23,444 bases of DNA from positions 1-23,444 of the IMG/VR virus record IMGVR_UViG_3300022693_001064; one strand, 5' to 3'. Below the pieces are notes generated by a model. The model saw only the letters and a program-made list of their open reading frames with translations. It was not told where the DNA came from and searched no databases. This DNA comes from a virus. Position 1 is the stretch's first letter; each line of letters starts with the position of its first letter. Shown here piece by piece: positions 6,374-23,165 of this stretch. The translations under genes were made by a program, and so were the position numbers.

Positions 6374-6374
6374 T

Positions 6375-6380
6375 TACTTA
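6375..6380 (-). promoter_or_regulatory. TAAGTA element upstream of the sigma gene
   Basis: GTTGCTAAGTA on the minus strand matches GCTAAGTA before endonuclease I; the upstream flank also matches in part (AGAGGTGGC in plus-strand sense at both sites). It would allow the sigma factor to drive its own gene. Confidence 0.35.
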
Positions 6381-6422
6381 GCAACAGAGGTGGCCGTCAT
6401 TATTCGAGGTAGATTGGGGGCA

Positions 6423-6666: not shown

Positions 6667-6672
6667 TAAATA
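6667..6672 (+). promoter_or_regulatory. TAAATA element before the replication leader
   Basis: GGGTAAATAG is the only plus-strand TAAATA I find in the window. A start about 5 nt further on (6678) would place the structured leader (6689 onward) close to the 5' end. A TTGAGC at 6641-6646 is a possible -35, but its spacing to any -10 is poor. Confidence 0.4.
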
Positions 6673-6796: not shown

Positions 6797-6814
6797 CGTT
6801 ATGAGGTACAAAAA

Positions 6815-8970: not shown

Positions 8971-9000
8971 AAGCCCGACCCGCTTTGCGTTGTCGGGCTT
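8971..9000 (+). other. Leader hairpin before the 9005 gene
   Basis: AAGCCCGAC (8971-8979) pairs perfectly with GTCGGGCTT (8992-9000), loop 12 nt, ending 4 nt before the ATG at 9005. There is no T-run, so it is more likely a translational control or processing element than a terminator. Confidence 0.45.
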
Positions 9001-9004
9001 CTAC

Positions 9005-9433
9005 ATGAGCAAGCGAATGACTGAAACCAAAACTAAAACAAAGACTGCCCGCAACGAACCCCTGTTCGCATTTCCAGCGCCAGCCGAAACCAAGGCGGTT
9101 TCTCTGGATCGTGATACGATCAATTTCTTCCACCAGCCGCACCATTCAGAATCAGAATGCGATGATGTGGATTTGGTTGGACCGGTTTTTCTCGTCGGCA
9201 CCCTAGAAGACATTACTTTTGGCGCAGGATGTACCAATCTGATTGGCCACCCCGAGGCAACGGCTTGCGCAGCAAAGCGCCTGCAAATGGCGAACAAGTT
9301 GAGCGCCCCCTACGCATTGGTCTTACGCGATAGGGCAGATGGGTTGGTTGACGTTTTCATCCAGTTCACAGCCGACACGGACCACCTCACCTATTACTTC
9401 AACTTCGGCCCCGCTGTCGGAGGTAGCGAATGA
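9005..9433 (+). CDS. Unknown phage protein
   Basis: This encodes 142 residues from the ATG at 9005 (MSKRMTETKTKTK). A second ATG at 9017 is in frame, and an upstream TTG at 8990 lies inside the hairpin; none has a good Shine-Dalgarno. The first 20 residues are basic and repetitive (TETKTKTKTARNE) and probably disordered. The rest is a soluble domain with strands (VFLVGTLEDITFGAG, YALVLRDRADGLVDVFIQF). No known motif. Its stop overlaps the next start as ATGA, so the two genes form a coupled pair. Confidence 0.6.
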   Translation: MSKRMTETKTKTKTARNEPLFAFPAPAETKAVSLDRDTINFFHQPHHSESECDDVDLVGPVFLVGTLEDITFGAGCTNLIGHPEATACAAKRLQMANKLSAPYALVLRDRADGLVDVFIQFTADTDHLTYYFNFGPAVGGSE

Positions 9434-9756
9434 AGGTCAATCAGATGGAAGCCGCTGCGGTATTCAGCGTTTCGATACCACTTGCGCAACTCATGGAGGA
9501 CGAGGTTTACTCTCGCTTGATGCGAAATGCGCGGCGGCGAACGAAGACCGAGCCTGCTGCTCGCGAGTTAGCGGCATGGAAACTTATGGGCGTGATGAAC
9601 GAAATCGTAGAGGACTGCGAATTGAAGAAATGGGTCGATGCGCAGGATGGCAAAGCGACAATGTGCCGGAAGGGTTCGTTCCTCAACGAGTGGAAAGTCA
9701 TCTGCCACGACGCATCAACGGCGATGCTGTTCAAGCTGACATTTTGCGGAACATGA
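9430..9756 (+). CDS. Unknown phage protein, coupled to the preceding gene
   Basis: This encodes 108 residues, with an ATGA overlap with the previous gene. The N-terminal half is helical and basic (YSRLMRNARRRTKTEPAARELAAWKLM), which could contact nucleic acid or a partner protein. The C-terminal part carries three cysteines (DCEL, MCRKG, ICHDA) and a final FCGT, without a clear CxxC pair. No family recognised. Last gene of the plus-strand operon, followed by the shared terminator at 9763-9789. Confidence 0.6.
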   Translation: MKVNQMEAAAVFSVSIPLAQLMEDEVYSRLMRNARRRTKTEPAARELAAWKLMGVMNEIVEDCELKKWVDAQDGKATMCRKGSFLNEWKVICHDASTAMLFKLTFCGT

Positions 9757-9789: not shown

Positions 9790-10042
9790 ACCGTTGTATC
9801 TCTTCGCCTTCGACAAGGCCCTTAGGGCGAGCCTTGTCCTTTTGCGCGATACCAAACCCACCAGCGCCTAGGATAGCTGCGCAGCCGGTCCCGAACACCA
9901 GCGCGTCGAACGCCTGTCCTTGGAACAAAGCCCAACCCTGATAGGCAACAGCGGATAGCAGCGAGAAGGCCAAGCCAACTCGCCCTAGATCGTAATAGAG
10001 GTTGGATGGTCCGGTGAATAGGTCGCGGACGAGTTTTACCAT
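9788..10042 (-). CDS. Holin-like small membrane protein
   Basis: This encodes 84 residues from the ATG at 10042 (MVKLVRDLF), chosen over the GTG at 10054 because GGAAG lies 4-5 nt upstream. It overlaps the previous gene by 7 bp. Two hydrophobic helices are visible (VGLAFSLLSAVAYQGWALF and ALVFGTGCAAILGAGGFGIA), followed by a charged tail (KDKARPKGLVEGEEI). Size, two spans, charged C-terminus and position at the end of the late operon are typical of a class II-like holin, which would release the signal-less endolysin encoded at 4398. No family motif is strong enough to name it. Confidence 0.6.
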   Translation of the reverse strand: MVKLVRDLFTGPSNLYYDLGRVGLAFSLLSAVAYQGWALFQGQAFDALVFGTGCAAILGAGGFGIAQKDKARPKGLVEGEEIQR

Positions 10043-10761
10043 AGCTTCCACCACGGTTCCGGCGCCTTCTGTCCTTTGATTTCCTCGATCGTTGCGGCCA
10101 CTCCGCTTGCGGCCAGGCCCACGGTGGAGAGGATGTGCTGATCGTCATACGGTTGGTTGGCAGGGTCGGTGTACCCTATGCCTAGCAAACCGATGGGAAA
10201 GCCCTCACGGCTTACCAGCGGGCATGTAAACGCCTTGTCCACGGCATGTTGTTGGAGATAGGCTTTGTAGGCCGGATCGTAATCCATTTCCGCGACATTC
10301 TGGCTGATGCAACCGGGACTGCGAAAATCTCGCCAGATCATCTTGGAAGTCTGGCTCATGATGCTGGTGGGATAGTTGCTGGACGCCGGAACGCTGACGC
10401 CTTCCGCAAGCGAAATGTGGGAGGTGTAGATGTGGCTGAACGGGACTTCGATGAGGTTCTTGGTCCCGTTGGTGTACTGCCTCACCAGTACCCTGTCCGC
10501 GTTCGTTTTCCCGCGCAGTGCGCCTAGTTGATCGTGGACCTTAACATCGCCAGTGATGCTGCGATCCAGTGCATCGCGTTCCATTTCCGGTGTCGGGTGC
10601 GCAGCCCTGTGGAGGTTCGCTCTGTTGTCCAGCGTTAGCACGGCAAGGAACAGGCCGATGAAGGTAATAACTGCTAGCCACGGGTTCTTACGGGCACTCT
10701 CCCAAAGAGAAGCAAGGACGCCTAGCAAGGTAGCCCATGCCGTAAGAAAACCCGTAACCAT
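10036..10761 (-). CDS. Membrane-anchored protein with GAF-like domain
   Basis: This encodes 241 residues from an ATG at 10761. The N-terminus has two hydrophobic segments (FLTAWATLLGVLASLW and PWLAVITFIGLFLAVLTL), so the protein should be anchored in the inner membrane. Residues about 85-235 resemble a GAF/PAS-type sensor: a strand with VLVRQYTNGTKNLIEVPF, a central region, then CPLVSREGFPIGLLGIGY and a long final helix. The reading as a GAF-like fold is pattern recognition, not a search result. It directly precedes the holin-like gene with a 7-bp overlap, so a role in sensing or timing lysis is a reasonable guess. There is no Shine-Dalgarno; TAAATA ends 4 nt before the ATG, suggesting a leaderless late transcript. 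Confidence 0.7.
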   Translation of the reverse strand: MVTGFLTAWATLLGVLASLWESARKNPWLAVITFIGLFLAVLTLDNRANLHRAAHPTPEMERDALDRSITGDVKVHDQLGALRGKTNADRVLVRQYTNGTKNLIEVPFSHIYTSHISLAEGVSVPASSNYPTSIMSQTSKMIWRDFRSPGCISQNVAEMDYDPAYKAYLQQHAVDKAFTCPLVSREGFPIGLLGIGYTDPANQPYDDQHILSTVGLAASGVAATIEEIKGQKAPEPWWKLW

Positions 10762-10765
10762 CAGC

Positions 10766-10771
10766 TATTTA
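10766..10771 (-). promoter_or_regulatory. TAAATA late-promoter candidate for the lysis-end genes
   Basis: On the minus strand CGTTAAATA is followed by 4 nt and then the ATG at 10761. It lies in the 13-bp gap after the stop of the preceding gene (10775), with no Shine-Dalgarno. Confidence 0.5.
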
Positions 10772-10774
10772 ACG

Positions 10775-11089
10775 TCATTCGGGTTCAGGAGCGGGTTCTT
10801 CCGACGGCAGGGTGAGATCTACACCAACTGCCTGTGCGAGATTCCGGCCGCCGCTTAGCAGCGCGTTCAAGTGCATCGAAAAATACATGCGCTCGTCGGG
10901 ATAGTCAGCCAGTATGGTAGCCGCCTCTGCGACCATCGCTTTGAATTCGGGGGTCGATACAAGGGCCGTTACGGGTCCAACAAGGGCTTCGCGCTGCGCA
11001 GCTACCCGCGCTTCATCCTGTGCGCGGCGGGCTTCCACGATAGCCTGTGCTTCGGCGTACTGCTCGTCTGTGATTGTTTCAGTGGTCAT
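10775..11089 (-). CDS. Unknown Ala/Glu-rich helical phage protein
   Basis: This encodes 104 residues, with an ATG at 11089 that has GGAGAG about 7 nt upstream. The first half is a highly charged helix (EAQAIVEARRAQDEARVAAQREAL), probably a coiled coil. The second half has more hydrophobic helices (FKAMVAEAATILADYPDERM), and the end is acidic and Pro-rich (SEEPAPEPE). No family recognised. It follows the tail-chaperone-like gene by 3 bp, so it probably belongs to the fibre module. Confidence 0.6.
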   Translation of the reverse strand: MTTETITDEQYAEAQAIVEARRAQDEARVAAQREALVGPVTALVSTPEFKAMVAEAATILADYPDERMYFSMHLNALLSGGRNLAQAVGVDLTLPSEEPAPEPE

Positions 11090-11092
11090 CTG

Positions 11093-11503
11093 TTACTCTC
11101 CAAAATCTAATGCGGGTTCGTCCGGCCACACAACGGAAGCAGGAGCGTCAAAATCGATGGTCAAGCGGTGCAGCGCCTTGATGTATTCGAGGAACGCGGC
11201 TTGGCACTCGGTACTTAGCGGAGAACCGGGAAGGACTGCCCATTGAGCAGCCGCTATGCGCTGGTTCCGCTCTGCGCGAATGTCGTTGCCCTTTTCGCCA
11301 TCCCAGCCCTCATTGGGCACCGCAGGGGCGTTGATGGCATCATTGGTGAGGCAGTGCCCACACCGGGCTGTCTCGATGGATTCATCCACGTAGAGCGCCC
11401 ACATGGGGGTCGTTCGTCCGCATGACGTACACTGGCTTTCGCCATCTCCATCTTGCCCCGTCGTTTCGCGGATCAGTTCTTCTGCTGTCTTTAGTTGGAT
11501 CAT
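11093..11503 (-). CDS. Zinc ribbon plus tail-assembly-chaperone-like protein
   Basis: This encodes 136 residues; its ATG overlaps the stop of the large fibre gene as ATGA. The N-terminal part has a four-cysteine zinc ribbon, CTSCGRTTPMW (Cys25, Cys28) and RCGHC (Cys48, Cys51). The C-terminal part (NQRIAAAQWAVLPGSPLS...YIKALHRLTIDFDAP...WPDEP) matches the pattern of small phage tail/fibre assembly chaperones, which typically read R..WTQLPDSPL...YR..LR...P. Such proteins are usually encoded directly after the fibre they fold, exactly as here. The zinc ribbon fused in front of that domain is unusual. The family call is from pattern and position. Confidence 0.6.
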   Translation of the reverse strand: MIQLKTAEELIRETTGQDGDGESQCTSCGRTTPMWALYVDESIETARCGHCLTNDAINAPAVPNEGWDGEKGNDIRAERNQRIAAAQWAVLPGSPLSTECQAAFLEYIKALHRLTIDFDAPASVVWPDEPALDFGE

Positions 11504-14500
11504 GGTACAATCGTTATCTGGGCAGTCTGCCCGTTAGGGGTTGCGGACCTTACGCTGCTAGGTGTGCCTGCTGCTGACCAACTAACTTCCGTAATTTTAC
11601 AGGTTGAGCTGCTACCGTTGGTGGAGATTGACAAACCAAACTTGGTAACACCACTTGAAACGGTTATGTCAGTATCAAAGCTAAAGGATTTTGAGTAAGT
11701 TCCAGACGAGTATGCGTTGACATACTTGGTGTCCCACATCTGCTTCACTTCCTGCCAAACCCCAGACACGTATGCCCACAGTCGCATCGTAACCTCGATG
11801 TAATTGTTCTCATTATCGACAATTGGTTCAGGCTCGTATGGATTACCACCTCCGCCACCACTGACAAAAATGTACTTGCTAGCAGTCGCCGTGCCTTTGA
11901 AGCGGTACGTACCGTTCGCGGAGTCAGCCTGTGATTTGTCTATTTGGCGAGTTGGTCCCGAAGAACCTGCGTAGTCGGTTGTGAGTGACACACTGCTCGC
12001 AGTACCGGGCACAAGGATTTTGAGCCTCGCGGTTGCTTGAGTGGATGACACAGGATCGAGATACAGGTTGTAGCTTTCACCTGCGTTCAAAGTAGCAAGG
12101 CCGTTTGATGAGATAGGCAGGTAACTTGGAATGTAGCCAAAGTCGTAACCGAAGTTGATAACATCGCCATCCTTCGCGGTGAATGTCGCGGGCTTCAAGG
12201 CGATCTGCCAACCCGCGCCGCTACCAACGGAAATCTTCGCCCCGATGTTTAGGTTTCCGTTAAAGCGTGAACCCGACTCTGTAATCTCCAGCGCACGGTT
12301 TGGACCCAAGTAAACGGCATCCGCCGCTAATTCAGCTTCGCTGAAAGACTGGTTCGCCCTAAGTTCGAAGCGCGCCCTGCTTGTGCCCGCTACCACCGAT
12401 TGCGTTAGGTACGCTGCTAGCTTACCGTCATGTGTTGCAAGAACACCTTCGTTGGTTTGAACCCTCGCAATAAGGTTTGCATCAATTACCTTTTGCGCCT
12501 TGATTTCGCCATCCGTTGCAGTACGCACCGAAACACGCATCCAACGGATGGTCTTTGCGACCGCCGGACCAAAGCCCTCCCAGTTATTCATCTGGTGGAA
12601 GTTCATGTAACCTTCGTGCGGGTTGTGGACTAACTTTGTAAAGCGACGAACACCGTAGCCGCTATGTCCTACGACGCCGTTCACATCAGGATCTGACATG
12701 AAGTTAAGGCTAAGTGCGCCCCAACCATGACAGGTTATGCCTGCGCTTTGTAGCGAACCTGAAAGTAAGTGGACCTCCGCCTCAATCACATAATAGCCCG
12801 GATTCATGTACACGCTGCCTTGGATGAGGCCAGCGTTCAACGACGTGGATGACTGCACCATGCACCATCCACCGCGTCCAAAAGGATCGCTATCTCTGCT
12901 TACTACGATGTCACCAGTCCAGCCATTCCAAGTAGTTGGATAGGTCTGGCCATCGGGCCAGAGAGCAAAGGAAGGGTTAGGGTTTAGGGAAGTGTCGCCG
13001 CGTACAACGCTCGCTTCTAAGCTAGTTGCTCTAGACGCGAGTGCAGCCGTCTGCGACGCGCGAGTGGTTTCCTCTGTGGAGATGCGCGACGCTAGATTGC
13101 TATTTTGGTTCGGACCATTGAAGACCGTGCTTTCCAGTGTCGTCGTACGGTTAGCAAGGGCACTGTCGGCGTTGGCTCTGGTGCTTTCCTCCGTTACGAG
13201 GCGAGAATGGGTTTCGTTACGAGCAGCGCGACCCGATCCGTGAACAAAGGGGTTCCATTCGGTCTGGCCTTCGCGAGCCTCGCCAACATAGGGGCGGATG
13301 AACCAACCATAGCTGTCGTTACTGCCTTCGTAACTATCGAATTTGCGAAGCTCAAGGGCCGCCGTGGTGGCCCCTGCCGGAACCTTCGTCGAAGGCACGC
13401 CTATGCGGGTATAGGAAGCTAACGACTTGCCCTCATTAGCGCCGACGTTTGCATACTGATCCGAGAATCCAAGATAGCTCCCATTTCGATCATAGTAATA
13501 CAGCGTGCCGCCAACAGGGGCACGGTGGGCGTTGGCAAGTACATACCACTGGATCCAGCTTCCGGGGCGAACCGAAAACCTCTCCGAGGTGTAGTGCAGA
13601 TAACCAGTCGTTCCTAAACGAGTGCCCTGAAACAGACCCAAAGTGTGTTCGTTTTCGGGATGATAATCATAGCCTGCGAGATTGATGACGAACGCCGCAC
13701 CTGCCGCAGCCCCCAAGCCATTAATCGGGGTCCATCCGGTCATGGTTTCGAGGGTTGTGTTCGAAAGCAAGTTACCCCCACCTGAGCCACGAGCTTCAAG
13801 CAAAGTCGCACGATTGGCGAGCGCACCATCGGCATTGGCCCGTGTCGTTTCTTCGGTTGCAATCTTCGCGTTAAATGAAAGTTCAGATGCACGAAGCGAG
13901 GTAGCATCCTCTGTTGTAAACTCGAAGATTCTGGTGACGGCACCGGGAACACCTGCACCGTGTGGATTGTCAATTGAGCGATTAACGAGAAGGAAAAAAC
14001 GAACCCATACCGCTCCTTCGTGGAAGGGCACTTCACCTTCGTAGGTGTGGGTGTGGAATGCGCCATCAGGGATCGTGTAGATGTTACCGAGAACACCACT
14101 GTTTACACGATTGAAGTTGGTGTCGAAGTACTCGGCATAGAACATCATTTTTGTGGTTGGCCCAGACACCTGCCAAACACGCGCCCTCAACCTATAAAAT
14201 AGGTTTCTACGCTGTATTGCATGAACTTCACGCTTTGCAGCCGTAACCGTACTGAACTGTACATACGGACCATAATGCGGAGTGTCATTGCGGTACTCCC
14301 CGTCATTGCCGGGGGTTTCCGGCGGGGAAGAATGTGCCGCGATAAACGTATCAGGGCGCATTATCTCGAATGTACCGGCTTTGTTAAACCGGCTTTCGAG
14401 GTTTGTGCTTCGTGTAGCTAATGCGCTATCGGCAGAAGCGCGGGTTAGTTCTTCCGAATCTAGACGAGCAACGATGTCTGTAGAGTTATGGCCGCCTACG

Positions 14501-16590
14501 CGACTTTCCAATGTCGAAGTGCGGCCTGCAAGGGCGCTGTCAGCATTCGCCCTTGCAGTCTCTTCAGTTGCAATTCGAGCGTTTGTCTGTCGCTGGGCCT
14601 TAAATGTTTCAAGCAATGGTGGTTCGGTGCCATCCACAAGTTCGATACTCGGACGCCCAAAAGACTGATACGCACCGTCAGCGGCATAGAACTGGTATGC
14701 TCGATGCGAAATCTGCCGACCATCGGGATGGAAGCAGAAGTTCCATCCAGTTCGGACTATCTCACCAGTTTCCGTGTCATAGATGCCAGCGCCGTCGTGA
14801 GTTTTCTGGGTGGAGTTGCGAGGGAAGATGTAGCCTACAAACAAGTACCACTTGAGCGCTGTAAGGGCCGAAAAATCACAATGGGCGAAGTACGGATTGC
14901 CGTTGATCGTCGTCGTGTTCAAATCGCAGACGCCGTGGACACCCCAAAAGGATGATCGAGGCTCTTCACCCATGTGCATGATCGGGACCATGAACCTGTA
15001 AGTCTGGTCAGGGTCGAGTTGGAGCGTCGGAGCGCCGTTCCAGCCGCCAGCCTGTTGGCCACCAGCATCGGCGCGAGCAAGCCATACGGCATCGGAGTTT
15101 CCGCGTGGTCCTCTGATGTTCGCCCAAGGAGCGGTAGTGGGGTCGGGCAGTCGATGAATTTGGTTGCCAGCGCCACCGTTTTGGCCCCAAGGAATAACTG
15201 CGCCATCGTTCCACCACGACAGGTCAATGTAGTTCTTCCGGCTTTTGCTAGCTTGCGTCTCTAAAACCGAAGTACGTCCTGCAATCGCACTGTCCGCATT
15301 GGATCGGGTTGTTTCCTCGTTACGGATGCGAGCGTAGAGCGGACTGTCCGTTCCTAGGTCCAGCTTGCTTTCCAACGTGGACGCTCTGCTCGACAAGGCG
15401 CTGTCTGCGTTCGCCCGAACGGTTTCCTCGTTCGCGATGCGAGTGGTGAGACCGTTGGCGTCTGACTGGGCCGTTTCAGCGATGCTGCGGATCGCGCCTT
15501 CTTCATTCGTTGCACGAAGCACTTCCGCCGCAAGTTCGTCTCGCGCCTCCTGAACATCGCCGCTTAGGTCCGTGCGGGCCTGCGCAATCTCGCTTCTTGC
15601 TGTGGCAGCTTCTGTGTTCGCCTCACTTGCGGCTTGTTCGACTGCCGCCACATCCGCCGCAAGCTGGACTGACTCGGCGCGTTCTGCTGGCGTCATGCCA
15701 ACGGTTGCGCTGCTATCGGCTAGCTTTGCGAGGGGGAAGGAATGGCTGACCCCACCATCGGCAGTTGCAGTCACGATCAATTGGGAGTTGCCGCCCATCT
15801 CACTGGACGAGATTGAGAAGGTGCTAGTGCCACTTGCGCTTTTGACGTTTGGTGAGGTCGTCCAGCTTACCGGTGCCTCTACCCCGTCCAACATGGCCGT
15901 GAACGTGATCGTCTGGCTGGCTGGCGTTAGATTGCCGTTGAGGTAGGTAAAGCCAGCTTGGCTCGGTAGAAGGGCCAGCGAAGGGCCTACAGGGCCGGTA
16001 GCGCCATCCTGCATGTGGACGACGCTAATGTGGTCTGCCAATCCAGAGCCGTCCGCTAGGGCCGCTGTGACGATAACGCCGGTTGTACCGTTCCTTGCGG
16101 CAACGAATTGCGGAAGCGTCATTGTGACTTGATCGCCAGACGCTGCGCTTAGGAAATCTCCAACCGGCATGCGCGCTTCGCCGTTAATGTCAGTCACGCT
16201 CCAAACAACTGTGCCCGTCGAGTTCTGCTTGAAGGCGTTGAAAGTAATCGTCTGCGAGACAGGATCAGGCTCGCCATCCTTGTTATAGGTGATCGTCTGT
16301 GTGGACGAGGTAACGGATAGGACTTTCGCAGGCGTACCATCTACACCCGCTCGGCTTTTCGCTACCGTGAAGCGCTGGACGATTTCCTTACCCTGATGGA
16401 CTGCCTTGAAGGTAGCGTAAGCGGAATCATTCGTGACGCTGTAGAGCAGGTAGACACCTGTTGCGGCATCAATCTCGGCATCGCAGCCTACTTCCTCCAT
16501 GACGCTGTAAACAACGCCATGGCCTGTGGTAATGTCTTGCCCTTCGAAGGATACCTTGAACTGGCCGCGATACGAACTTAGTGCGGTCAT
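11500..16590 (-). CDS. Giant modular tail fibre / receptor-binding protein
   Basis: This encodes 1696 residues from an ATG at 16590 that overlaps the J-like gene stop (ATGA). N-terminal: about 100 residues likely docking to the tail tip, then two Ig-like repeats, each with a SQTITF segment. Then a helical stretch (VQLAADVAAVEQAASEANTEA) leads into seven copies of a roughly 25-residue coiled-coil unit of the form EETxRANADSALAxRxTxLES, plus a degenerate first copy. Between units 2-3, 4-5, 5-6 and after 7 sit larger beta-rich, Trp/Tyr-rich domains of roughly 150-200 residues that look like carbohydrate-binding jelly rolls. The C-terminal third begins with a DUF1983-like segment (AELAADAVYLGPNRALEI) and includes a GGGGGNP linker. 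Coiled-coil spacers with interposed sugar-binding domains fit a trimeric host-recognition fibre. Confidence 0.85.
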   Translation of the reverse strand: MTALSSYRGQFKVSFEGQDITTGHGVVYSVMEEVGCDAEIDAATGVYLLYSVTNDSAYATFKAVHQGKEIVQRFTVAKSRAGVDGTPAKVLSVTSSTQTITYNKDGEPDPVSQTITFNAFKQNSTGTVVWSVTDINGEARMPVGDFLSAASGDQVTMTLPQFVAARNGTTGVIVTAALADGSGLADHISVVHMQDGATGPVGPSLALLPSQAGFTYLNGNLTPASQTITFTAMLDGVEAPVSWTTSPNVKSASGTSTFSISSSEMGGNSQLIVTATADGGVSHSFPLAKLADSSATVGMTPAERAESVQLAADVAAVEQAASEANTEAATARSEIAQARTDLSGDVQEARDELAAEVLRATNEEGAIRSIAETAQSDANGLTTRIANEETVRANADSALSSRASTLESKLDLGTDSPLYARIRNEETTRSNADSAIAGRTSVLETQASKSRKNYIDLSWWNDGAVIPWGQNGGAGNQIHRLPDPTTAPWANIRGPRGNSDAVWLARADAGGQQAGGWNGAPTLQLDPDQTYRFMVPIMHMGEEPRSSFWGVHGVCDLNTTTINGNPYFAHCDFSALTALKWYLFVGYIFPRNSTQKTHDGAGIYDTETGEIVRTGWNFCFHPDGRQISHRAYQFYAADGAYQSFGRPSIELVDGTEPPLLETFKAQRQTNARIATEETARANADSALAGRTSTLESRVGGHNSTDIVARLDSEELTRASADSALATRSTNLESRFNKAGTFEIMRPDTFIAAHSSPPETPGNDGEYRNDTPHYGPYVQFSTVTAAKREVHAIQRRNLFYRLRARVWQVSGPTTKMMFYAEYFDTNFNRVNSGVLGNIYTIPDGAFHTHTYEGEVPFHEGAVWVRFFLLVNRSIDNPHGAGVPGAVTRIFEFTTEDATSLRASELSFNAKIATEETTRANADGALANRATLLEARGSGGGNLLSNTTLETMTGWTPINGLGAAAGAAFVINLAGYDYHPENEHTLGLFQGTRLGTTGYLHYTSERFSVRPGSWIQWYVLANAHRAPVGGTLYYYDRNGSYLGFSDQYANVGANEGKSLASYTRIGVPSTKVPAGATTAALELRKFDSYEGSNDSYGWFIRPYVGEAREGQTEWNPFVHGSGRAARNETHSRLVTEESTRANADSALANRTTTLESTVFNGPNQNSNLASRISTEETTRASQTAALASRATSLEASVVRGDTSLNPNPSFALWPDGQTYPTTWNGWTGDIVVSRDSDPFGRGGWCMVQSSTSLNAGLIQGSVYMNPGYYVIEAEVHLLSGSLQSAGITCHGWGALSLNFMSDPDVNGVVGHSGYGVRRFTKLVHNPHEGYMNFHQMNNWEGFGPAVAKTIRWMRVSVRTATDGEIKAQKVIDANLIARVQTNEGVLATHDGKLAAYLTQSVVAGTSRARFELRANQSFSEAELAADAVYLGPNRALEITESGSRFNGNLNIGAKISVGSGAGWQIALKPATFTAKDGDVINFGYDFGYIPSYLPISSNGLATLNAGESYNLYLDPVSSTQATARLKILVPGTASSVSLTTDYAGSSGPTRQIDKSQADSANGTYRFKGTATASKYIFVSGGGGGNPYEPEPIVDNENNYIEVTMRLWAYVSGVWQEVKQMWDTKYVNAYSSGTYSKSFSFDTDITVSSGVTKFGLSISTNGSSSTCKITEVSWSAAGTPSSVRSATPNGQTAQITIVP
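12990..15450 (-). repeat. Seven dispersed copies of a coiled-coil-coding repeat inside the fibre gene
   Basis: Units of roughly 75-85 bp encode EETxRANADSALAxRxTxLES. Approximate positions are 13000-13090, 13120-13205, 13780-13865, 14390-14470, 14505-14580, 15255-15335 and 15360-15445. Copies are similar at DNA level, which would let recombination remove, add or swap the domains between them. Confidence 0.75.
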
Positions 16591-18587
16591 AAAATGTTAC
16601 CATTACTATCAGCGGCGAACGTCACTGCTGGGTCAGTGAGGTAGCCAACGAAACTAGGGACACCTGAGCCAACTGCCGCTTGGACAGTCGTTGTTGAGTA
16701 GGGTCCGTAAATGCCGCTCAACATGCGGAAACGGGCGCGGACCTGTGTTGCCACTCCGCTAACGGGGGCATTGAAAACGAACTCTTCTGCGCTTGCTGTG
16801 AAGCGAGCAGCTACCTCGTTCCAAATGGTCCCATCCGTACTTACTTCGATGGCAATGCTGCCAACCGCAGCGTCGGGTTCTTCCCACCGAATGGTAATTT
16901 GCGATTGGCGAACGCCATTGGCGCCATCTACGGCTTGGCTTGTTACAGTCAGACCTTCCACTGGCTCTTGTGCTTCTGGATTGTAACCGGGAGGTCTAAT
17001 GTCGTCGGGAAGCGGCTTTACTTCGTTTAGATCGAAAGCGTAGATCGCCTCATTCTCTTCCTGCAACGTCATCTGGAAAAGCATTTCTGCCGTTTCCTCT
17101 TGAGCGATAACGCGGAACAATTTGCCGGGTTGTGCCCAACCTTCGCTTGGTAGAACCAGCCGGATAAGCGAGCCTACCTGTACCGTGAAAGCGGCAGGCA
17201 TGAAGGTGGCTGTTAAAATTCCAGAATAGTGGTTTCGGATCAGGAATTGCTTGGCAATGCGCTGCGCAGTTTCCGCCCGCGTTACGGCTGGAAGTTCAAG
17301 TACCAGAGTACGAGGAATGCCGTCAGCAAGTGGCGCAGTCTCTATCTCGCCCCAATCTTCCAACTGGTACAGTTTAGATGGATTGGTAAAGCGCCCACGG
17401 ACGATGTTGAAATACTCGCGGACCGCTTGCGAGGGTCGCCATTCATACTGTCCAAGTAGGTCGCGTTCTGTGAAGGTTGTGATAGGACCGTCTAGGTCGT
17501 TCACCCCACCTACAAGTTGATAAAGGCCACCAGTATCAACCAGCTTGGCTGCACCCATGCAGGAGGTTATCGCTGCAAGGATGGACTCATGCGCTTCGGC
17601 TGTACTGAAAATGCCATCGCAGGTGTAACGTTGGGTCGTGCCGCCATAGTGCGAGGTGACAGATTCTTCGCAGATGTTCGCGTATTCAACGAAGTTAGCG
17701 AAGTCGATGCGCGACGCTGGAATGCCCATGCCCCACATGAGCTTCCCGTTGACCCGCCAGCCTAGAAGATAGGTAAGCAACGCAAGAGCGGGATTGCGCC
17801 CAATTTGTCTCCCACCATTAGTCCACTGCCAAGTCGCGTTGTCGGTTGGTCGATGGCTTCCAGACCCGCCATTCGTACTGTCCAAGCGCGGGTCGTAGAC
17901 AGGGCACCCTTCGACGACTGTTGTTAAACGAGTTGGAATGCCATCGGGGTAGATGTCGGCATCCATCCGGTGGACGAGGCAAAGGTAAGCGCAGCCGGTG
18001 AATGTAGAGTTGTTTGTCCAGTATCCCCCTGACCCAAACCTAAAGCCGTTGTTTCGCTTCCCTTCTAGGACAGGGTGTACCTTTAGCCCTTCGTCCTTGG
18101 TGAATTTACCAATCGCGCTGGAACCGTTGTAGCTAAGCGTATCTTCGAAGTAGATTTGCTTGACCGCGTTGATGCGATGCGACGCAAGAGCGATAACGCG
18201 ATAGAAGTAGTCACCCTTTTTGTATGGGCGCAGATGAGTAGGGTTCTGCCCACCTTGGTCGCGCTTAATCTTCTCGTGGAAACGTTCGTCAGCGGCAGCG
18301 GCAGTCAGACCAAACACGATGCGGCGGGGAGCGGTAGGCTCCACCGTAATGTTCATTCGCTCAAAGACGCTGTTCCCAATGCCTTTGGGCTTGCCCATGA
18401 TTAGGCGCTGCGCGAGCGTTGAAGCTGCCGCGATAGCGATGGCGGCAATCAGCTTTGCACCAATGCCGATGGTGCCCGCCGCAACCGCTGCCTTACCCGC
18501 AATAAGTCCAGCAAGGGCAGGCTGCGCCACAACGACAAGCGCGATGACAACCACTGCTGCGACGATAAGTTTGACTGTCTTACCCAC
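16587..18587 (-). CDS. J-like tail tip / host-specificity hub protein
   Basis: This encodes 666 residues. I place the start at the GTG at 18587 because GGAGG lies 8 nt upstream; a TTG at 18602 is open but has no ribosome site. The first 60 residues are hydrophobic and Ala/Gly/Val-rich (VAAVVVIALVVVAQPALAGL), usual in this family and probably interacting with the tape measure or host membrane. The body (RRIVFGLTAAAADERF, YKKGDYFYRVIALASHRI, DGIFSTAEAHESILAAITSC, YQLVGG) follows the central-tail-protein / lambda J pattern, with the typical bisected hub domain. The C-terminus has a fibronectin-III-like repeat (ITIRWEEPDAAVGSIAIEVS). It forms the closing hub under the tail tube. Overlaps both neighbours. 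Confidence 0.82.
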   Translation of the reverse strand: MGKTVKLIVAAVVVIALVVVAQPALAGLIAGKAAVAAGTIGIGAKLIAAIAIAAASTLAQRLIMGKPKGIGNSVFERMNITVEPTAPRRIVFGLTAAAADERFHEKIKRDQGGQNPTHLRPYKKGDYFYRVIALASHRINAVKQIYFEDTLSYNGSSAIGKFTKDEGLKVHPVLEGKRNNGFRFGSGGYWTNNSTFTGCAYLCLVHRMDADIYPDGIPTRLTTVVEGCPVYDPRLDSTNGGSGSHRPTDNATWQWTNGGRQIGRNPALALLTYLLGWRVNGKLMWGMGIPASRIDFANFVEYANICEESVTSHYGGTTQRYTCDGIFSTAEAHESILAAITSCMGAAKLVDTGGLYQLVGGVNDLDGPITTFTERDLLGQYEWRPSQAVREYFNIVRGRFTNPSKLYQLEDWGEIETAPLADGIPRTLVLELPAVTRAETAQRIAKQFLIRNHYSGILTATFMPAAFTVQVGSLIRLVLPSEGWAQPGKLFRVIAQEETAEMLFQMTLQEENEAIYAFDLNEVKPLPDDIRPPGYNPEAQEPVEGLTVTSQAVDGANGVRQSQITIRWEEPDAAVGSIAIEVSTDGTIWNEVAARFTASAEEFVFNAPVSGVATQVRARFRMLSGIYGPYSTTTVQAAVGSGVPSFVGYLTDPAVTFAADSNGNIL

Positions 18588-19074
18588 CGGACGCACCTCC
18601 AATCGGAGCGTCGAGAATTGCGGTAGGCGCGATCTTCCATGCGCAGTCGCAATCTAGGGTTGGCCAAGTAACCAAACCGTCTTTGGTGATAGGGAAGCCT
18701 TCGTAGTTGAAGTCTACAGTTTGCTCGCCCACGAAGTACGTGAAGCGGCCTACGCAGACGCCAATGGCTTTGTTGCGCAGTACAATGTCGCCCTTACCTG
18801 CTTGTGCTACATGGACAGGCTTGCCTAGCTTTTTGGTAACTGCGCTCTTTAGCGTTCCAGCTTTAATCTCGCGGAGTAGTAGAGCGGCTTCGCGCTTGTC
18901 AGTGTACTGACCGGCGTACTTGGAAACAAAGTCCTTGCCGGTAATTGCTTTGACAGCGCCGTTGCAGAATAGAACGCAATCATGCTCGCCCCACCCGAAA
19001 GGCTCGTCGCGAACACGGTCGAGGTAGCAAGCTAATCTATCGGTCCAATCCGGGTATCTAGTTAGCTTCTTCAT
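18580..19074 (-). CDS. Tail protein of DUF6950 / NlpC-P60-like type
   Basis: This encodes 164 residues. WGEHDCVLFCNGAVKAITGKDF places Cys33 and a nearby His-Asp in the arrangement of the DUF6950 and NlpC/P60-like phage proteins. The later segment GDIVLRNKAIGVCVGRFTYFV fits the second half, where a catalytic His would be expected but is not evident. Such proteins sit at the tail tip between the distal tail proteins and J, and may locally open peptidoglycan during DNA entry; activity here is uncertain. The ATG at 19074 has no Shine-Dalgarno. Instead TAAATA lies 5 nt upstream, inside a GCCGGT/ACCGGC inverted repeat. Confidence 0.72.
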   Translation of the reverse strand: MKKLTRYPDWTDRLACYLDRVRDEPFGWGEHDCVLFCNGAVKAITGKDFVSKYAGQYTDKREAALLLREIKAGTLKSAVTKKLGKPVHVAQAGKGDIVLRNKAIGVCVGRFTYFVGEQTVDFNYEGFPITKDGLVTWPTLDCDCAWKIAPTAILDAPIGGASGG

Positions 19075-19079
19075 GCCGG

Positions 19080-19085
19080 TATTTA
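19080..19085 (-). promoter_or_regulatory. TAAATA late-promoter candidate for the tail-tip genes
   Basis: On the minus strand GGTGTAAATACCGGC is followed directly by the ATG at 19074, leaving 5 nt between TAAATA and ATG as in a T4 late promoter to its start site. It lies in the 26-bp gap between genes. Confidence 0.6.
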
Positions 19086-19100
19086 CACCGGCGAGTCAGC

Positions 19101-19799
19101 CTACTTTAGTACCTGTTCCGAATAGATTCCGCCGCCACCGCCTCGGCCTCCGCCTCCACCGCCACCGCCGTATGAACCACCAGCCGCGCCGCGTGACGGA
19201 TTGCTTGGATTGTTTGCGATGCTAACTGCGAAGTCCTGTGAGGTATCAAGCGGATCAAAACGCTTTTGATCTAACCAGTTGCTACCTGTCGCCGCGCTAA
19301 TCATGCTGGCATGTGCTTCGATTGTCAGGGTGAAGAGGTGTTCCTTGCCGTTGTAGGAAATGGACAGTTCATCCATCGCACCAGCGCGAACACGCCTAAA
19401 AGCCCAGATGCCTTCCTGCCCCGGTGTTGGTGCCGTGACCATCATTGCGCGCCATAGGATTGCAGTGCGAGCCTGATACTCTTCGGGGTCCACGCTAGCA
19501 GCCTGTACGTAGGTGCTTGGTGACTCTGGAATGGCCATCGAAAGGGTGAAGGCTTCGGAACCCTGATAGCTGAAATTGTTCGTCCCGATGTTAATAGGGG
19601 CGCCGTTTACCAGTGGGTCGAACGTCTTATTGTCCAACTCAATGTCGCCAGTCCCTTTGGGCGTGATCGGATGGGTTCCGGTCCACACACCAACAGGGCC
19701 GCTTTTGAAGTCGAACCAGCCGAAGATGGCAGGGGTGATGCCAAACTCATTGCGCAGCTTCGCGGACCATTCCGCGTGGAGTGGGCCTAGATCTCTCAC
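19101..19799 (-). CDS. Distal tail protein with glycine-rich C-terminus
   Basis: This encodes 232 residues from a GTG at 19799 that overlaps the previous stop (GTGA). The core (FGWFDFKSGPVGVWTG, YQARTAILWRAMMV, FDPLDTSQDFAVSIAN) has the pattern of siphoviral minor tail / hub proteins that lie between the distal tail protein and the NlpC/P60-like protein; DUF2163-type is the closest I can suggest. The last 25 residues are unusual: SYGGGGGGGGRGGGGGIYSE, almost pure glycine. Such tracts occur as flexible linkers or as polyglycine-II helices in adhesins. Membership in the tail is well supported by context; the exact family is not. Confidence 0.65.
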   Translation of the reverse strand: MRDLGPLHAEWSAKLRNEFGITPAIFGWFDFKSGPVGVWTGTHPITPKGTGDIELDNKTFDPLVNGAPINIGTNNFSYQGSEAFTLSMAIPESPSTYVQAASVDPEEYQARTAILWRAMMVTAPTPGQEGIWAFRRVRAGAMDELSISYNGKEHLFTLTIEAHASMISAATGSNWLDQKRFDPLDTSQDFAVSIANNPSNPSRGAAGGSYGGGGGGGGRGGGGGIYSEQVLK

Positions 19800-20395
19800 A
19801 GGGCTTCTCTCGCGCTCAATGTGCCCACGCTCACGGTGTCTGCGTCCCTGCTAATCCCAGCGCCGTCTTGGCCTTCAATGAGGCGGAAGCGGCCCTTGGG
19901 AGAACTGAAATTGACCGAACTACCAGTAGCGAATTGAGTGCGGGTGTTTGGGCTGACCTCGATTAGAACGCGGCCATTCCCGTCTGCGACAGCCGGGGCC
20001 GTGATAATCTGGAATAGGGTGTTGTTGATGCTTAGGTAATCGCCGCCGACGAGTTGGCTTGCCGCGCCTGCGGCCCACCCACCAACGGAGATTGTTTGGC
20101 TGTATGGGAATGCCGTTGCAGCAAGCGTCCTACCATTAAGGTTTTTGCCGCTCCCGTGCGGCTGGTACAGGAACGTCCCTGTCGCCCCCCGCAAACTGGC
20201 ACGCCATGCCGTGAAAGCCTTCGCGTTGGCTTCTGACATTGGATTGAAGCCAAGTTCTAGGCTCCACTCTGCAAAGTTGTTTACCGTTACCTGATTACCC
20301 GAGAAGGGCGAAATCATGATACCTTGGTTGTGGGCGAGGCGAAGCGTCTCGGTAGATGCTACAACGGGTGGTGGATTAATTGGGTAGGTAGTCAC
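19796..20395 (-). CDS. Distal tail / tail structural protein
   Basis: This encodes 199 residues from a GTG at 20395, with GAGG 7 nt upstream. The protein is strand-rich and soluble (NFAEWSLELGFNPMSEANAKAF, ATGTFLYQPHGSGKNL, GGDYLSINNTLFQII), with the organisation expected for a distal tail protein that joins tube and tip. The position directly after the tape measure supports this. No catalytic motif. A hairpin and a TAAGTA element lie between it and the tape measure, so it may start a separate late transcript with a 24-nt leader. Confidence 0.65.
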   Translation of the reverse strand: MTTYPINPPPVVASTETLRLAHNQGIMISPFSGNQVTVNNFAEWSLELGFNPMSEANAKAFTAWRASLRGATGTFLYQPHGSGKNLNGRTLAATAFPYSQTISVGGWAAGAASQLVGGDYLSINNTLFQIITAPAVADGNGRVLIEVSPNTRTQFATGSSVNFSSPKGRFRLIEGQDGAGISRDADTVSVGTLSAREAL

Positions 20396-20407
20396 CTAGG
20401 GGCCTCA

Positions 20408-20436
20408 CTTGCAAAGTAGTCGAGTACTTATGCAAG
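20408..20436 (-). promoter_or_regulatory. Hairpin with embedded TAAGTA after the tape measure gene
   Basis: CTTGCA-AAGTA pairs with TACTT-A-TGCAAG (6 + 5 bp, one bulged A, 6-nt loop). No T-run follows, so termination is doubtful. The minus strand carries GCATAAGTA (20430-20425), and initiation 5 nt beyond it would give a short leader including the GAGG of the 20395 gene. Confidence 0.4.
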
Positions 20437-20448
20437 CAAGGCTCCGGC

Positions 20449-23154
20449 TTAGTTCATTCGGGGGCGACCAATCTTGTTCATCGTCTTTGCGTGAGCAGCG
20501 TCGGTAATCATTGGCATTGCAGAGGCGATACCTTCCATCACATGGCGACGCGTTTCCTCTGGATCGGTGGAGCCGTTCACGTTCACAATAACGCTTGTGC
20601 CGCCGCCACCTAAACGATGGTTAGGAACGATGTAGCCGCTGCGATCCGGTGTAAACAATTCCATGCCGCGTTCGCCGATACGGTACGTTTCGCCAGCGTT
20701 TACCGGACCACCAACAGCCTTACCAATGGTGGCGTGATCTGGACTCATGATGCCAGGGGCCGAACCTCCCGTGCTGGTAGATGAACCAACCGAAACACCG
20801 CCGATGATGTTGCCAGCAATCTGGCCAAGCCATTTGCCTAGGGAGCCACTAAGCGCCTTTGCCCATTCAGCCATCATGGTTTGCAGCGGCTGGTAGACGA
20901 GCAGTTCGAGCATCAAGCTGCCTAGGTCCTTCAACGTCTTCTTGAAAACGTCTCCGAACTTCTCACTACCCATGATAAGCGCATCAAAGGCATTGGCTGC
21001 GATGTTACCGAGGTCTGCACCAATTTGCTCCCTGACGCGGGAAATGTCGTCGGCGCGTTGCTGGGCTGCTCTCGCCTGTTCTTCCTGTAGGCGCTTCGCT
21101 TCCTCTAGCTTTTTGTTCCGCGCCTCAATGGCATCCTTCTCGTCGTAATAGTCGTTGATCGCTTTCCGCGTTGCCTTAGAAAGTGCGCTGACGACTATGG
21201 TGCCGTCTGACAGGATGACCGTACCGGATTGCCTCTCCGCGTTGAGCAAGGCCAACTGGCGCTCGTTCAACCCAATTTCCTCACGCATCTTCACATAGTC
21301 GTCGCGGGTATCGCGCAGGGCCTGTTGGTTTCGTGCGAACTCCTCAACGTCGAAGTTCTGTCCAGCTTGCTTAGCAATTTCCTTGCCGAGTTCGCTATCA
21401 CCCGAAACACCGGCCTGTTTTAGTGCGTTGTAAATTGCCAACGCTTTGCCGGTGAGCATCAACTGACGCTCGGTGTCGCGTAGGTCCTCGAGATAATCCA
21501 ATGCCTGCCTGCGCGCATCTGCTGCCGCGCTTGATGCGCCTCCACCCCCATTCGATGGAACACTGCCAATTGGTGGCGCGCTGTAGTCGATACCCGGTGC
21601 CCCAGCGAGCATCTGTGCAAGCTCGTATTCCTGTCTGCGGAGTTCAGCGACTGTCAACTCCGCTTCCATGATGTTGGCATGAAGCTGCTGTTCACCTGAG
21701 TTGTAGACGCGCCTCTTTCTGCCCGAGGTTGCCATCCCATCAGCAGTCTTGGTCTGCATGGAGATTTGGCGATCCATTCGAGCGTTGTTCTCGGCAATCT
21801 TGTCCGTCAGCTTTACCCGTGCGGCCGCAGCGGCAGCTTTCGCGTTGGCGATGAGCTGCTTCGTCTCCTGCATGAGCGCATTGGCGTTTGCCAGCGAGGC
21901 GGCTCTTGCTTCACCCTTCGCATGGGCAAGCTGCATCGTGACCTCTGTGACCTTTGCGGTACGAGCCTGGGCCTCTGTCAGCTTCTGCGTGTATTCAACG
22001 GAGGCGCGTTTGGATTCCTCGGTTTTCTGGTAGAGCCAGTAGATACCAGCAGCGGCCCCCGCGATTGCTAATCCCCACGGCCCGCCAAATAGCGCCAACA
22101 GGCCCATCGCTGCGGCACGTAGGCCTGTGACTGCCATCGTTGCGCCGGCCATTACAGGGGCCACACGGGCATAGGCCATCATTCCAGCAATCGCGCCAAG
22201 GTTTGCAGCAACGAACGATCGTGCTGCGGCGACTGCCGTAACGCCAAGGGCAACCGCATACCGGCTGGCGATGATCCCGGCGGCTACCGCTGCCGCGTTG
22301 CCAATTGTGTTCAGCGCGTTGGAGACGCTTGCCCCCATCGCATTCGCCGCTGGCGCTGCGCCTGACATTTGGCGCACGATTTCCGCTGTGAGTTGGATTG
22401 CCTTTGTGAAGCTATCCAGAACGCCGCTGTCGATAGCTGCTAGGATTAGGGTCTGCTTGGCAGCTTGGAGTTCTTGCTGCGCTCTGGTGTATTCCTGTAG
22501 CTTCTTAATGTCGTCGTCCGAGATAACGGAAGCCTTGGAACCCATCTCGTCAAACGCCTTACCGCCATCACGCAAGAGCGGAATGAGGTTGGTAACGTCG
22601 CTAGCCATTGCCTCCAGATAGAAGACCATTTCCTCTTGGCTGACGCCTGCCTTCACCAAGCTATCGTAGTAGAGTTGCAGAGCGTCTTTGCCGCCTAGCT
22701 TCTGGAATTGCTGCGCAGTTACGCCAACCTTGGGAGCGATCTGTTCGAAGAAGTCCTTCATGGGACCGCCACCCGTGCTGATGAAGTCACCGATGCGATC
22801 ACGAACGTCTTTGAAAATGTCGCCTAGTTTTTCAAACTCGATACCAACGGTAGATGCCGCAAACGCCTGCCGCTGGAAGTCATCGAACCCGACACCTGCT
22901 ACCTGTGCCGAATTGGCTAACTGCTTCGCCTTGTCTGCGATTGAGTCGAACTGGAATTTGATAGCAGTTGCACCAGCGACTGCCGCCGTTCCCATAGCTG
23001 CGAATGCGGTTGCCGCCCCCTTCGCCATCGTGGCAAAGTTGCTCCGCATTTCTCGCTGAGTGCGTTGGGTTTGGGTCGAAGCCCTACGAAGTCCACTTTC
23101 AAAGTTTGCGGACTTGAGGGAGAGCGAAGCGTATAGATTACCAATCGAAGCCAT
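20449..23154 (-). CDS. Tape measure protein
   Basis: This encodes 901 residues; tape measure proteins set tail length and are ejected with the DNA. Using about 0.15 nm per residue, the tail would be near 135 nm, normal for a siphovirus. The N-terminus (SLSLKSANFESGLRRASTQTQRTQREM) and the QANSAQVAG-like segment after FDSIADKAKQL are typical. Residues about 285-380 are strongly hydrophobic (AAAVAAGIIASRYAVALGV, MGLLALFGGPWGLAIAGAAAG), followed by long coiled coils (KLEEAKRLQEEQARAAQQRA). Near the C-terminus lies the recurring phage motif VGGPVNAGETYRIGERGMEL. The ATG at 23154 has no Shine-Dalgarno and is preceded by TAAATA with a 5-nt gap. Confidence 0.92.
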   Translation of the reverse strand: MASIGNLYASLSLKSANFESGLRRASTQTQRTQREMRSNFATMAKGAATAFAAMGTAAVAGATAIKFQFDSIADKAKQLANSAQVAGVGFDDFQRQAFAASTVGIEFEKLGDIFKDVRDRIGDFISTGGGPMKDFFEQIAPKVGVTAQQFQKLGGKDALQLYYDSLVKAGVSQEEMVFYLEAMASDVTNLIPLLRDGGKAFDEMGSKASVISDDDIKKLQEYTRAQQELQAAKQTLILAAIDSGVLDSFTKAIQLTAEIVRQMSGAAPAANAMGASVSNALNTIGNAAAVAAGIIASRYAVALGVTAVAAARSFVAANLGAIAGMMAYARVAPVMAGATMAVTGLRAAAMGLLALFGGPWGLAIAGAAAGIYWLYQKTEESKRASVEYTQKLTEAQARTAKVTEVTMQLAHAKGEARAASLANANALMQETKQLIANAKAAAAAARVKLTDKIAENNARMDRQISMQTKTADGMATSGRKRRVYNSGEQQLHANIMEAELTVAELRRQEYELAQMLAGAPGIDYSAPPIGSVPSNGGGGASSAAADARRQALDYLEDLRDTERQLMLTGKALAIYNALKQAGVSGDSELGKEIAKQAGQNFDVEEFARNQQALRDTRDDYVKMREEIGLNERQLALLNAERQSGTVILSDGTIVVSALSKATRKAINDYYDEKDAIEARNKKLEEAKRLQEEQARAAQQRADDISRVREQIGADLGNIAANAFDALIMGSEKFGDVFKKTLKDLGSLMLELLVYQPLQTMMAEWAKALSGSLGKWLGQIAGNIIGGVSVGSSTSTGGSAPGIMSPDHATIGKAVGGPVNAGETYRIGERGMELFTPDRSGYIVPNHRLGGGGTSVIVNVNGSTDPEETRRHVMEGIASAMPMITDAAHAKTMNKIGRPRMN

Positions 23155-23159
23155 GCGTG

Positions 23160-23165
23160 TATTTA
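23160..23165 (-). promoter_or_regulatory. TAAATA late-promoter candidate for the tape measure gene
   Basis: On the minus strand CACGTAAATACACGC is followed by the ATG at 23154. The element and the 5-nt distance are the same as at 19080, and it lies in a 28-bp gap between genes. Confidence 0.6.

Follow-up and report, generated by a model that had tools for sequence, protein, structure and literature searches.

TAARTA elements 4-5 nt before start codons in a siphophage lineage: probable T4-type late promoter cores and candidate leaderless late mRNAs

The window, i.e. the whole stretch of viral DNA of 23,444 nt that was analysed, carries structural, lysis and nuclease genes as well as a gene for a gp55-like late sigma factor, which are preceded by copies of the hexamer TAAATA or TAAGTA. 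The genes, the elements and the inverted repeats around the elements are as follows.

4391-4396, plus strand: TAAGTA upstream of the lysozyme gene (ATG at 4401, spacing 4 nt)
4401-4829, plus strand: phage lysozyme gene (Pfam Phage_lysozyme, E 8.5e-53)
5093-5440, minus strand: endonuclease I gene (Pfam Phage_endo_I, E 7.6e-27)
5444-5460: inverted repeat CTACTTA-CGC-TAAGTAG, enclosing the endonuclease I TAAGTA
5445-5450, minus strand: TAAGTA upstream of the endonuclease I gene (GTG at 5440, spacing 4 nt)
5535-6335, minus strand: gene of the gp55-like late sigma factor, 266 aa (phrog_12791, phrog_234 and T4 gp55 matches)
6342-6390: inverted repeat CCTCTGTT...AACAGAGG, flanking the sigma-gene TAAGTA
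6375-6380, minus strand: TAAGTA upstream of the sigma gene (TTG at 6335, spacing 39 nt)
6667-6672, plus strand: TAAATA, fourth copy of the window
10036-10761, minus strand: 241-aa gene (weak GAF_2 match), leaderless candidate
10766-10771, minus strand: TAAATA upstream of the 241-aa gene (ATG at 10761, spacing 4 nt)
18580-19074, minus strand: DUF6950 tail gene (Pfam DUF6950, E 2e-36), leaderless candidate
19075-19092, minus strand: perfect inverted repeat GCCGGT-GTAAAT-ACCGGC, surrounding the DUF6950 TAAATA and ending at the ATG
19080-19085, minus strand: TAAATA upstream of the DUF6950 gene (ATG at 19074, spacing 5 nt)
19796-20395, minus strand: distal tail gene (phrog_1302 distal tail protein, E 4e-28)
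20408-20436: inverted repeat CTTGCA...TGCAAG, flanking the distal tail TAAGTA
20425-20430, minus strand: TAAGTA upstream of the distal tail gene (GTG at 20395, spacing 29 nt)
20449-23154, minus strand: tape measure protein gene (phrog_2854, E 1.6e-66), leaderless candidate
23160-23165, minus strand: TAAATA upstream of the tape measure gene (ATG at 23154, spacing 5 nt)

Counting both strands, TAAATA is present in four copies, as the first-pass annotation had stated, and this number is ordinary (5.0 expected). Three of the copies lie 4-5 nt before the start of an open reading frame (0.05 expected, P 2e-5), and TAAATA was the most over-represented of all 4096 hexamers at this position. The reported spacings of 5, 5 and 4 nt before the ATGs at 23154, 19074 and 10761 were confirmed. 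These starts cannot lie further upstream, since an in-frame stop is found 6-27 nt away without an intervening ATG, GTG or TTG; in the tape measure gene the stop 27 nt upstream fixes ATG 23154. All three lack a Shine-Dalgarno sequence, as had also been claimed (anti-Shine-Dalgarno pairing energies +0.1, -3.0 and +0.6 kcal/mol). The contig L014, which is 96% identical, has the same TAAATA before its tape measure gene.

The element is broader than TAAATA, the only form that had been noticed at first. TAAGTA occurs seven times in the window, twice 4 nt before a start (lysozyme and endonuclease I genes) and twice upstream of leadered starts (distal tail and sigma genes), and the element is thus TAARTA. 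Another ATG is found 3 nt upstream of ATG 4401 of the lysozyme gene. The copy before the sigma gene would allow self-regulation. The full octamer of T4 late promoters, TATAAATA, is absent from the window; among the gene starts, TGTAAATA (19080-19087) comes closest to it.

As the motif had been selected within the window itself, its enrichment is tested fairly only in relatives. The occurrence of TAAATA 4-5 nt before starts gave P about 5e-18 in the related phage G009 and about 6e-31 in six pooled siphophage contigs, the window included. The motif search upstream of the relatives' genes that the annotation had suggested detected 474 distinct TAARTA sites in 40 siphophage contigs, 195 of them 4-6 nt before a start (near class; 138 at 4 nt and 55 at 5 nt). 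A second, far class is found 17-45 nt from the start (mode peak 26-27) and is followed by a normal Shine-Dalgarno sequence, and the spacings of 7-16 nt between the classes are nearly unoccupied. The mean Shine-Dalgarno energies of the near and far classes were -0.6 vs -6.2 kcal/mol (P 4e-34). Positions -45 to -5 relative to the near-class elements hold at most 0.15 bit anywhere, and a -35 element at these sites is therefore ruled out. The base directly before TAARTA is C or A in 174 of the 195 near sites, and the siphophage sites do not retain the two leading bases of the T4 octamer.

The genes bearing TAARTA in the relatives encode portal, head, tail, fibre and lysis proteins. The portal, tape measure, distal tail and DUF6950 orthologues (26-67% protein identity) carry it at either spacing: it precedes all 14 tape measure genes compared, in leaderless or leadered form, stands at 4-5 nt before the DUF6950 gene in 10 of 14 phages and at 4-5 or 20-26 nt before the distal tail gene. 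No TAARTA precedes the tail232 gene in any of the 14 phages compared. Relatives which keep the genes and lose both the motif and its spacing had been named in advance as evidence against the proposal; the outcome said more than that, as the sister phages retain gene and motif, yet at 20-32 nt with a Shine-Dalgarno sequence. Some relatives use TAAGTA almost exclusively, others TAAATA. In J-protein relatives at a greater distance (Yong-M3-232, MT835603; ~35% identity), TAARTA occurs only once in each and never near a start.

The sequences flanking the element are complementary to each other to a degree which none of 2000 permutations reached in its mean, in both the near and the far class, permutation being the sole control for the near class. 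The mean accessibility of the start region in the far class was 0.37 in read-through and 0.53 in late transcripts (control genes 0.41 to 0.47). As in T4 gene e, the arm just ahead of the putative late promoter tends to be complementary to the start region. Since the arms can pair, the start would be hidden in read-through RNA, and RNA initiated at the late promoter would not contain the upstream arm.

The sigma factor encoded in the window is a true gp55 relative. It matches phrog_12791 (E 8e-75, residues 2-262), phrog_234 (E 1e-23) and, as its best PDB match in sequence, the T4 gp55 chain 7d7c_F (E 5e-6). Its AlphaFold2 model (mean pLDDT 84.7) exhibits a sigma region 2-like fold as in gp55; the best PDB match of this fold is again 7d7c_F (Foldseek probability 1.00, E 3e-3, rmsd 1.9 A across 89 columns), and the other well-supported matches are mostly sigma factor chains. 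A first structure prediction from 7 sequences was poor (58) and was discarded. The closest characterised relatives (38-44% identity) come from RaK2-like and other jumbo phages; no gp33 or gp45 homologues were detected in the RaK2-like phage CBB (PMC5259590). The gp55-like protein is likely to be the reader of TAARTA in the window.

We consider it probable (about 70%) that TAARTA forms the core of a late promoter of the T4 type which produces leaderless late mRNAs in the near layout and leadered ones in the far layout, with the sigma factor of the window as its likely reader. The element shares the hexamer, the lack of a -35 motif and the location in front of late genes with T4-type late promoters. 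An element 4-5 nt before the start codon would make host RNA polymerase with the phage late sigma initiate at or within a nucleotide of that codon, and from this promoter spacing we infer leaderless mRNAs. In the far layout, an element about 17-45 nt upstream leaves room for the Shine-Dalgarno sequence in between. Many structural and lysis genes which do not overlap the preceding gene have an element of their own. The T4 late octamer begins at -13 (PMC2988020) and ends at -6; a gap of 5 nt thus places +1 on the A of the ATG, in agreement with the original prediction. A point against the explanation is that the common siphophage gap of 4 nt would place it, by strict T4 spacing, on the T. We have not found a leaderless arrangement described in the literature for a gp55-type phage sigma.

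The first-pass annotation had ascribed the leaderless genes to the gp55-like sigma. The T4-type core, a spacing which dozens of related phages keep and the true gp55 relationship of the window sigma partly support this. That gp55 is the reader in the lineage is less certain, since among the motif-bearing siphophages the gene was detected only in the window and in the contig G050. A family HMM, our own HMM and profile-profile comparison found no gp55-like gene in 31 of the 32 J-related siphophage records, nor in the earlier set, although the records may be incomplete; direct terminal repeats, sought as proof of contig completeness, gave nothing useful. Several siphophage records without the gene span 38-45 kb. 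It is possible, though less likely than not, that the architecture is real and transcriptional but that in most of the lineage something other than gp55 reads the element, be it an unrecognised sigma, an activator or a host sigma. The gp55-like gene found in the window and in G050 would then be one of several solutions or a later acquisition. The difference between TAAGTA and TAAATA phages also suggests several specificities. On the other hand, the primase adjoining the sigma gene in the window is absent from many motif-bearing relatives as well, as would be the case in incomplete contigs, the element is the T4 late promoter core and both sigma-bearing siphophages have it. Moreover, all-against-all clustering revealed no gene outside the structural module common to all motif-bearing phages. 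This clustering and HHalign of the gene sets gave no common regulator other than gp55 in the phages without it, and PHROG and Pfam scans of the non-structural genes found only HNH endonucleases, AlpA and weak HTH matches. The plasmid collection yielded no gp55-like match and the GTDB contigs no match to the J protein; with the sigma profile, GTDB matches were confined to contigs of MAG-titled records.

For the lineage as a whole, which would be widespread and has been little studied, we suggest tentatively, at a little short of even odds, that many structural and lysis genes are individually promoted and leaderless, that the promoter is located within the silencing arm and that the element drifted between TAAATA and TAAGTA as the reader changed (a gp55-like sigma in some phages, another factor in others). 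If so, a phage late sigma can set initiation exactly on start codons genome-wide, and the translation of virion genes would need no Shine-Dalgarno sequence but would depend strictly on late transcription. TAARTA with a 4-5 nt spacing would be a simple, testable rule for recognising late genes and true start codons in a large unannotated phage group, and the orthologous genes switching between the leadered and leaderless forms would be a natural set for studying the choice of form.

It is improbable that TAARTA is no promoter but an RNA-level translation initiation signal replacing the Shine-Dalgarno sequence. The constant spacing of 4-5 nt to the start codon and the presence at genes lacking that sequence would suit such a signal; however, orthologous genes carry TAARTA 17-45 nt upstream together with a normal Shine-Dalgarno sequence, the element equals the late promoter core known from phages of the T4 type and it is situated between pairing arms. 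The empty zone at 7-16 nt is unexpected for a ribosome signal but expected for a promoter, since a leader too short for a Shine-Dalgarno sequence would be useless. It is very improbable that the spacing merely reflects an upstream gene which ends in TAA and is separated from the next gene by a short linker. This artefact was ruled out because it fits only 62 of the 195 near sites, those with TAA in frame with an upstream reading frame of at least 60 codons; hexamer and spacing are conserved regardless at the other 133 sites, among them the tape measure and DUF6950 sites of the window, where the upstream gene ends before the element. Chance or intergenic A+T bias, which the selection of the motif from the window itself might have favoured, can practically be dismissed, as the enrichment was repeated in independent contigs, in one phage and pooled, and TAAATA at 4-5 nt is not in excess over hexamers of the same composition in known T4-like phages.

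The proposed late promoter has one of its closest parallels in T4 late transcription (gp55, TATAAATA promoters; PMC2988020, PMC7892883), with which it shares a homologous sigma, the hexamer core, the lack of -35 and the late genes. The T4 elements, however, are mostly 20-30 nt before starts and thus leadered, whereas those of the siphophage lineage are often at 4-6 nt; T4 is a large myovirus, and the first two bases of its octamer are not kept here. The RaK2-like and jumbo phages (CBB, GAP32, RaK2, 121Q, PA5oct, Atu_ph07, Phosso) include the closest characterised relatives of the window sigma. In CBB, ATAAATA was found at 35 places, some before structural genes, and proposed as a late promoter; the transcription section of that paper does not mention leaderless spacing (PMC5259590). 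Unlike our near class, RaK2, PA5oct, Atu_ph07 and nearly all of Phosso have leadered spacing; that the best-characterised cousins of the sigma (the first three) are leadered phages speaks against the explanation preferred here. In the Sinorhizobium phage Phosso, which has many leadered sites, the clearest near case is a TAAATA 5 nt ahead of the ATG of a 285-aa gene.

The T4 genes e, soc, 49 and I-TevI have a late promoter within a structure hiding the ribosome-binding site (PMC3014915), likewise in the 5' arm of a structure which hides the start in read-through RNA. These are few genes, whereas in the siphophage lineage the arrangement appears, statistically and from sequence, to involve many late genes. 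In Deinococcus-Thermus (PMC12340547) and mycobacteria (PMC4633059), leaderless mRNA arises from a -10-like element immediately upstream of the start codon, but these are housekeeping-type bacterial promoters and not TAARTA with a phage late sigma. Giant phages of the AR9 type resemble the present case in their phage-specific late promoters, but they have their own multisubunit RNA polymerases and leaders of 26-491 nt (PMC5312081). Known gp55 phages such as T4, RaK2 and PA5oct have essentially leadered spacing. In 88 sigma-bearing contigs, mostly from a marine T4-like clade, the spacing has one peak at 5 nt and another at 14-23 nt. The gp25-like baseplate genes of this clade have TAAATA 4-6 nt before the ATG in 51 of 66 cases, with 31 different spacers, which points to the leaderless form.

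The hexamer TAAATA occurs four times in the window, as counted in the first-pass annotation. This number is unremarkable (5.0 expected) and it is the position of the copies that stands out. Three of them indeed lie 5, 5 and 4 nt upstream of the minus-strand ATGs at 23154, 19074 and 10761, each lacking a Shine-Dalgarno sequence, and TAAATA ranks first among all 4096 hexamers for over-representation 4-5 nt upstream of ORF starts in the window. The three starts are secure because in-frame stops are found 27, 24 and 6 nt upstream, respectively, with no ATG, GTG or TTG in between. The hexamer was drawn too narrowly: the element is TAARTA, and the TAAGTA sites had been overlooked. In all, seven late-type sites were located in the window, five at leaderless and two at leadered spacing, and inverted repeats enclose several of them:

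TAAATA, 5 nt before ATG 23154, minus strand, leaderless spacing
TAAATA, 5 nt before ATG 19074, minus strand, leaderless spacing
TAAATA, 4 nt before ATG 10761, minus strand, leaderless spacing
TAAGTA, 4 nt before lysozyme start 4401, plus strand, leaderless spacing
TAAGTA, 4 nt before endonuclease I start 5440, minus strand, leaderless spacing
TAAGTA, 29 nt before distal tail gene 20395, minus strand, leadered spacing
TAAGTA, 39 nt before sigma gene 6335, minus strand, leadered spacing
19075-19092, inverted repeat GCCGGT-GTAAAT-ACCGGC enclosing a TAAATA site
Inverted repeat CCTCTGTT...AACAGAGG flanking the TAAGTA site of the sigma gene
5535-6335, minus strand, gp55-like sigma, 266 aa, with PHROG and PDB matches

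The 266-aa protein matched the PHROG 'sigma factor for late transcription' (E 8e-75) and also the T4-type family (E 1e-23). T4 gp55 was its top PDB match both by sequence (7d7c_F, promoter open complex, E 5e-6) and by fold (rmsd 1.9 Å over 89 columns, E 3e-3; predicted model with pLDDT 84.7). Its closest characterised kin are encoded by the jumbo phages Phosso, Atu_ph07, 121Q, RaK2 and PA5oct (38-44% identity), and no relative at ≥60% identity was found in a 50,697-record phage collection. The interval separating the sigma gene from the primase gene carries a long G+C-rich inverted repeat, CCCGCTAACCGG...CCGGTTAGCGGGATTTTT, followed by T residues (6770-6815); this arrangement resembles an intrinsic terminator or operator.

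A profile search with the J protein (central tail fibre) yielded 36 siphophage loci, 33 of them new. In 40 siphophage contigs, with duplicate sites dropped and ATG or GTG of ORFs of at least 70 aa taken as starts, 195 of 474 TAARTA sites sit 4-6 nt before a start (138 at 4 nt, 55 at 5 and 2 at 6). Distances of 7-16 nt are nearly unoccupied, and a second mode extends over 17-45 nt with a maximum at 26-27. The near class has no -35 element, since no position further upstream exceeds 0.15 bit. The mean Shine-Dalgarno energy is -0.6 kcal/mol in the near class (none) versus -6.2 in the far class (present; P 4e-34). A promoter would be expected to leave either no leader or a leader that can accommodate a Shine-Dalgarno; a ribosome signal would not produce this pattern. 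Some siphophages use almost exclusively TAAGTA, others TAAATA; records L319-L321, L325-L328, L331, L334 and L343 carry chiefly TAAGTA at genes where sister phages have TAAATA. This alternation suggests that the factor reading the element has switched specificity.

Relatives retain the motif at the portal, tape measure and distal tail genes, at one or the other of the two spacings. The spacing differs between orthologues of one gene, leaderless versus leadered: TAAATA-4/5, TAAGTA-4 or TAAATA-22 to -32 at portal genes, TAAATA-4/5, TAAATA-26 or TAAGTA-27 to -34 at tape measure genes, and 4-5 or 20-29 nt at distal tail genes. The element is absent from the tail232 gene in 14/14 phages compared; in those inspected, this gene abuts or overlaps the preceding one. 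Tail-module relatives found via the tape measure protein mostly lack a near site (isolated matches in a few), and in each of two distant J-protein relatives the single TAARTA is not at near spacing; both groups act as negative controls.

Pairing of the 16 nt preceding the element with the 40 nt that follow it was stronger than in 2000/2000 permutations in both classes. Predicted accessibility of the far-class start region is 0.37 in read-through RNA versus 0.53 in late-promoter RNA; control genes cut at comparable places changed from 0.41 to 0.47. The same read-through-hiding logic is documented for T4 genes e, soc, 49 and I-TevI (PMC3014915).

In T4, S-CAM7, Atu_ph07, RaK2, PA5oct and Phosso, TAAATA clusters about 17-35 nt upstream of starts and is no more enriched at 4-5 nt than same-composition hexamers. 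ATAAATA upstream of structural genes of the RaK2-like phage CBB was earlier proposed as a late promoter (PMC5259590). The known gp55 phages are essentially leadered. In 88 sigma-bearing contigs, mainly of a marine T4-like clade, spacing maxima occur at 5 nt and then at 14-23 nt. The 5-nt peak comes mostly from one gene, whose product is, judging from its sequence, probably a gp25-like baseplate wedge protein. TAAATA precedes the ATG by 4-6 nt in 51 of 66 gp25-like homologues, with 31 distinct spacer sequences; element and distance are conserved while the spacer letters are free. The element of this homologue is placed further upstream in Phosso and PA5oct. Contigs bearing gp55-like sigma also occur in records L303-L310, whose titles describe MAGs of bacteria (Pelagibacter, Rickettsiales, Flavobacteriaceae and others); these contigs are probably phage DNA binned with bacteria.

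The T4 late octamer starts at -13 (PMC2988020) and therefore ends at -6, so that transcription from TAARTA would begin on the A of the ATG with a 5-nt gap or within one nucleotide of it with a 4-nt gap. Because T4 spacing would set +1 at or near the ATG, we infer that leaderless late mRNAs gated by a late promoter are the best explanation. Besides the window, gp55-like sigma was found only in G050, the contig of record L333 (PHROG E 7e-58), whose locus has 11 near sites. It was absent, in contigs that may be incomplete, from 31 of 32 J-related siphophage records by family HMM, from an earlier set of relatives' records and from eight whole contigs by profile-profile alignment. These relatives may encode gp55 outside the contig, or the element may be read by a different factor. 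The gp55 sigma, the promoter core, RBS-hiding structures and host-type leaderless genes are already known; their combination and its extent appear to be new, and a full-text literature search, which covered a minority of subscription papers, turned up no account of a gp55-type sigma driving leaderless late genes.

A family of 154-204 aa is common to eight motif-bearing siphophages, e.g. L356-L357 (contig G053), L352-L353 (G047) and L102-L103 (G008); it was not found in the two siphophages with gp55-like sigma, both possibly fragments. In contig G027 (L100 5230-6513), an IS256-type transposase-like ORF, recognised by eye, adjoins primase where the window has the sigma gene, which it may have displaced. 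Small proteins at 8990-9433 and 9430-9756 of the window end in a motif like MLFKLTFGG or MFKLAF, shared by several genes of G027 (L100/L101), with multiple copies per phage. At 2517-2861 (minus strand), a stretch of a 114-aa ORF, GATAIEYGLIAALIAVAGI, is Flp/Fap-pilin-like, and its neighbours within 1-3000 are chromosomal in appearance (both by eye); the window may thus begin in host DNA at its left end and span a prophage junction.
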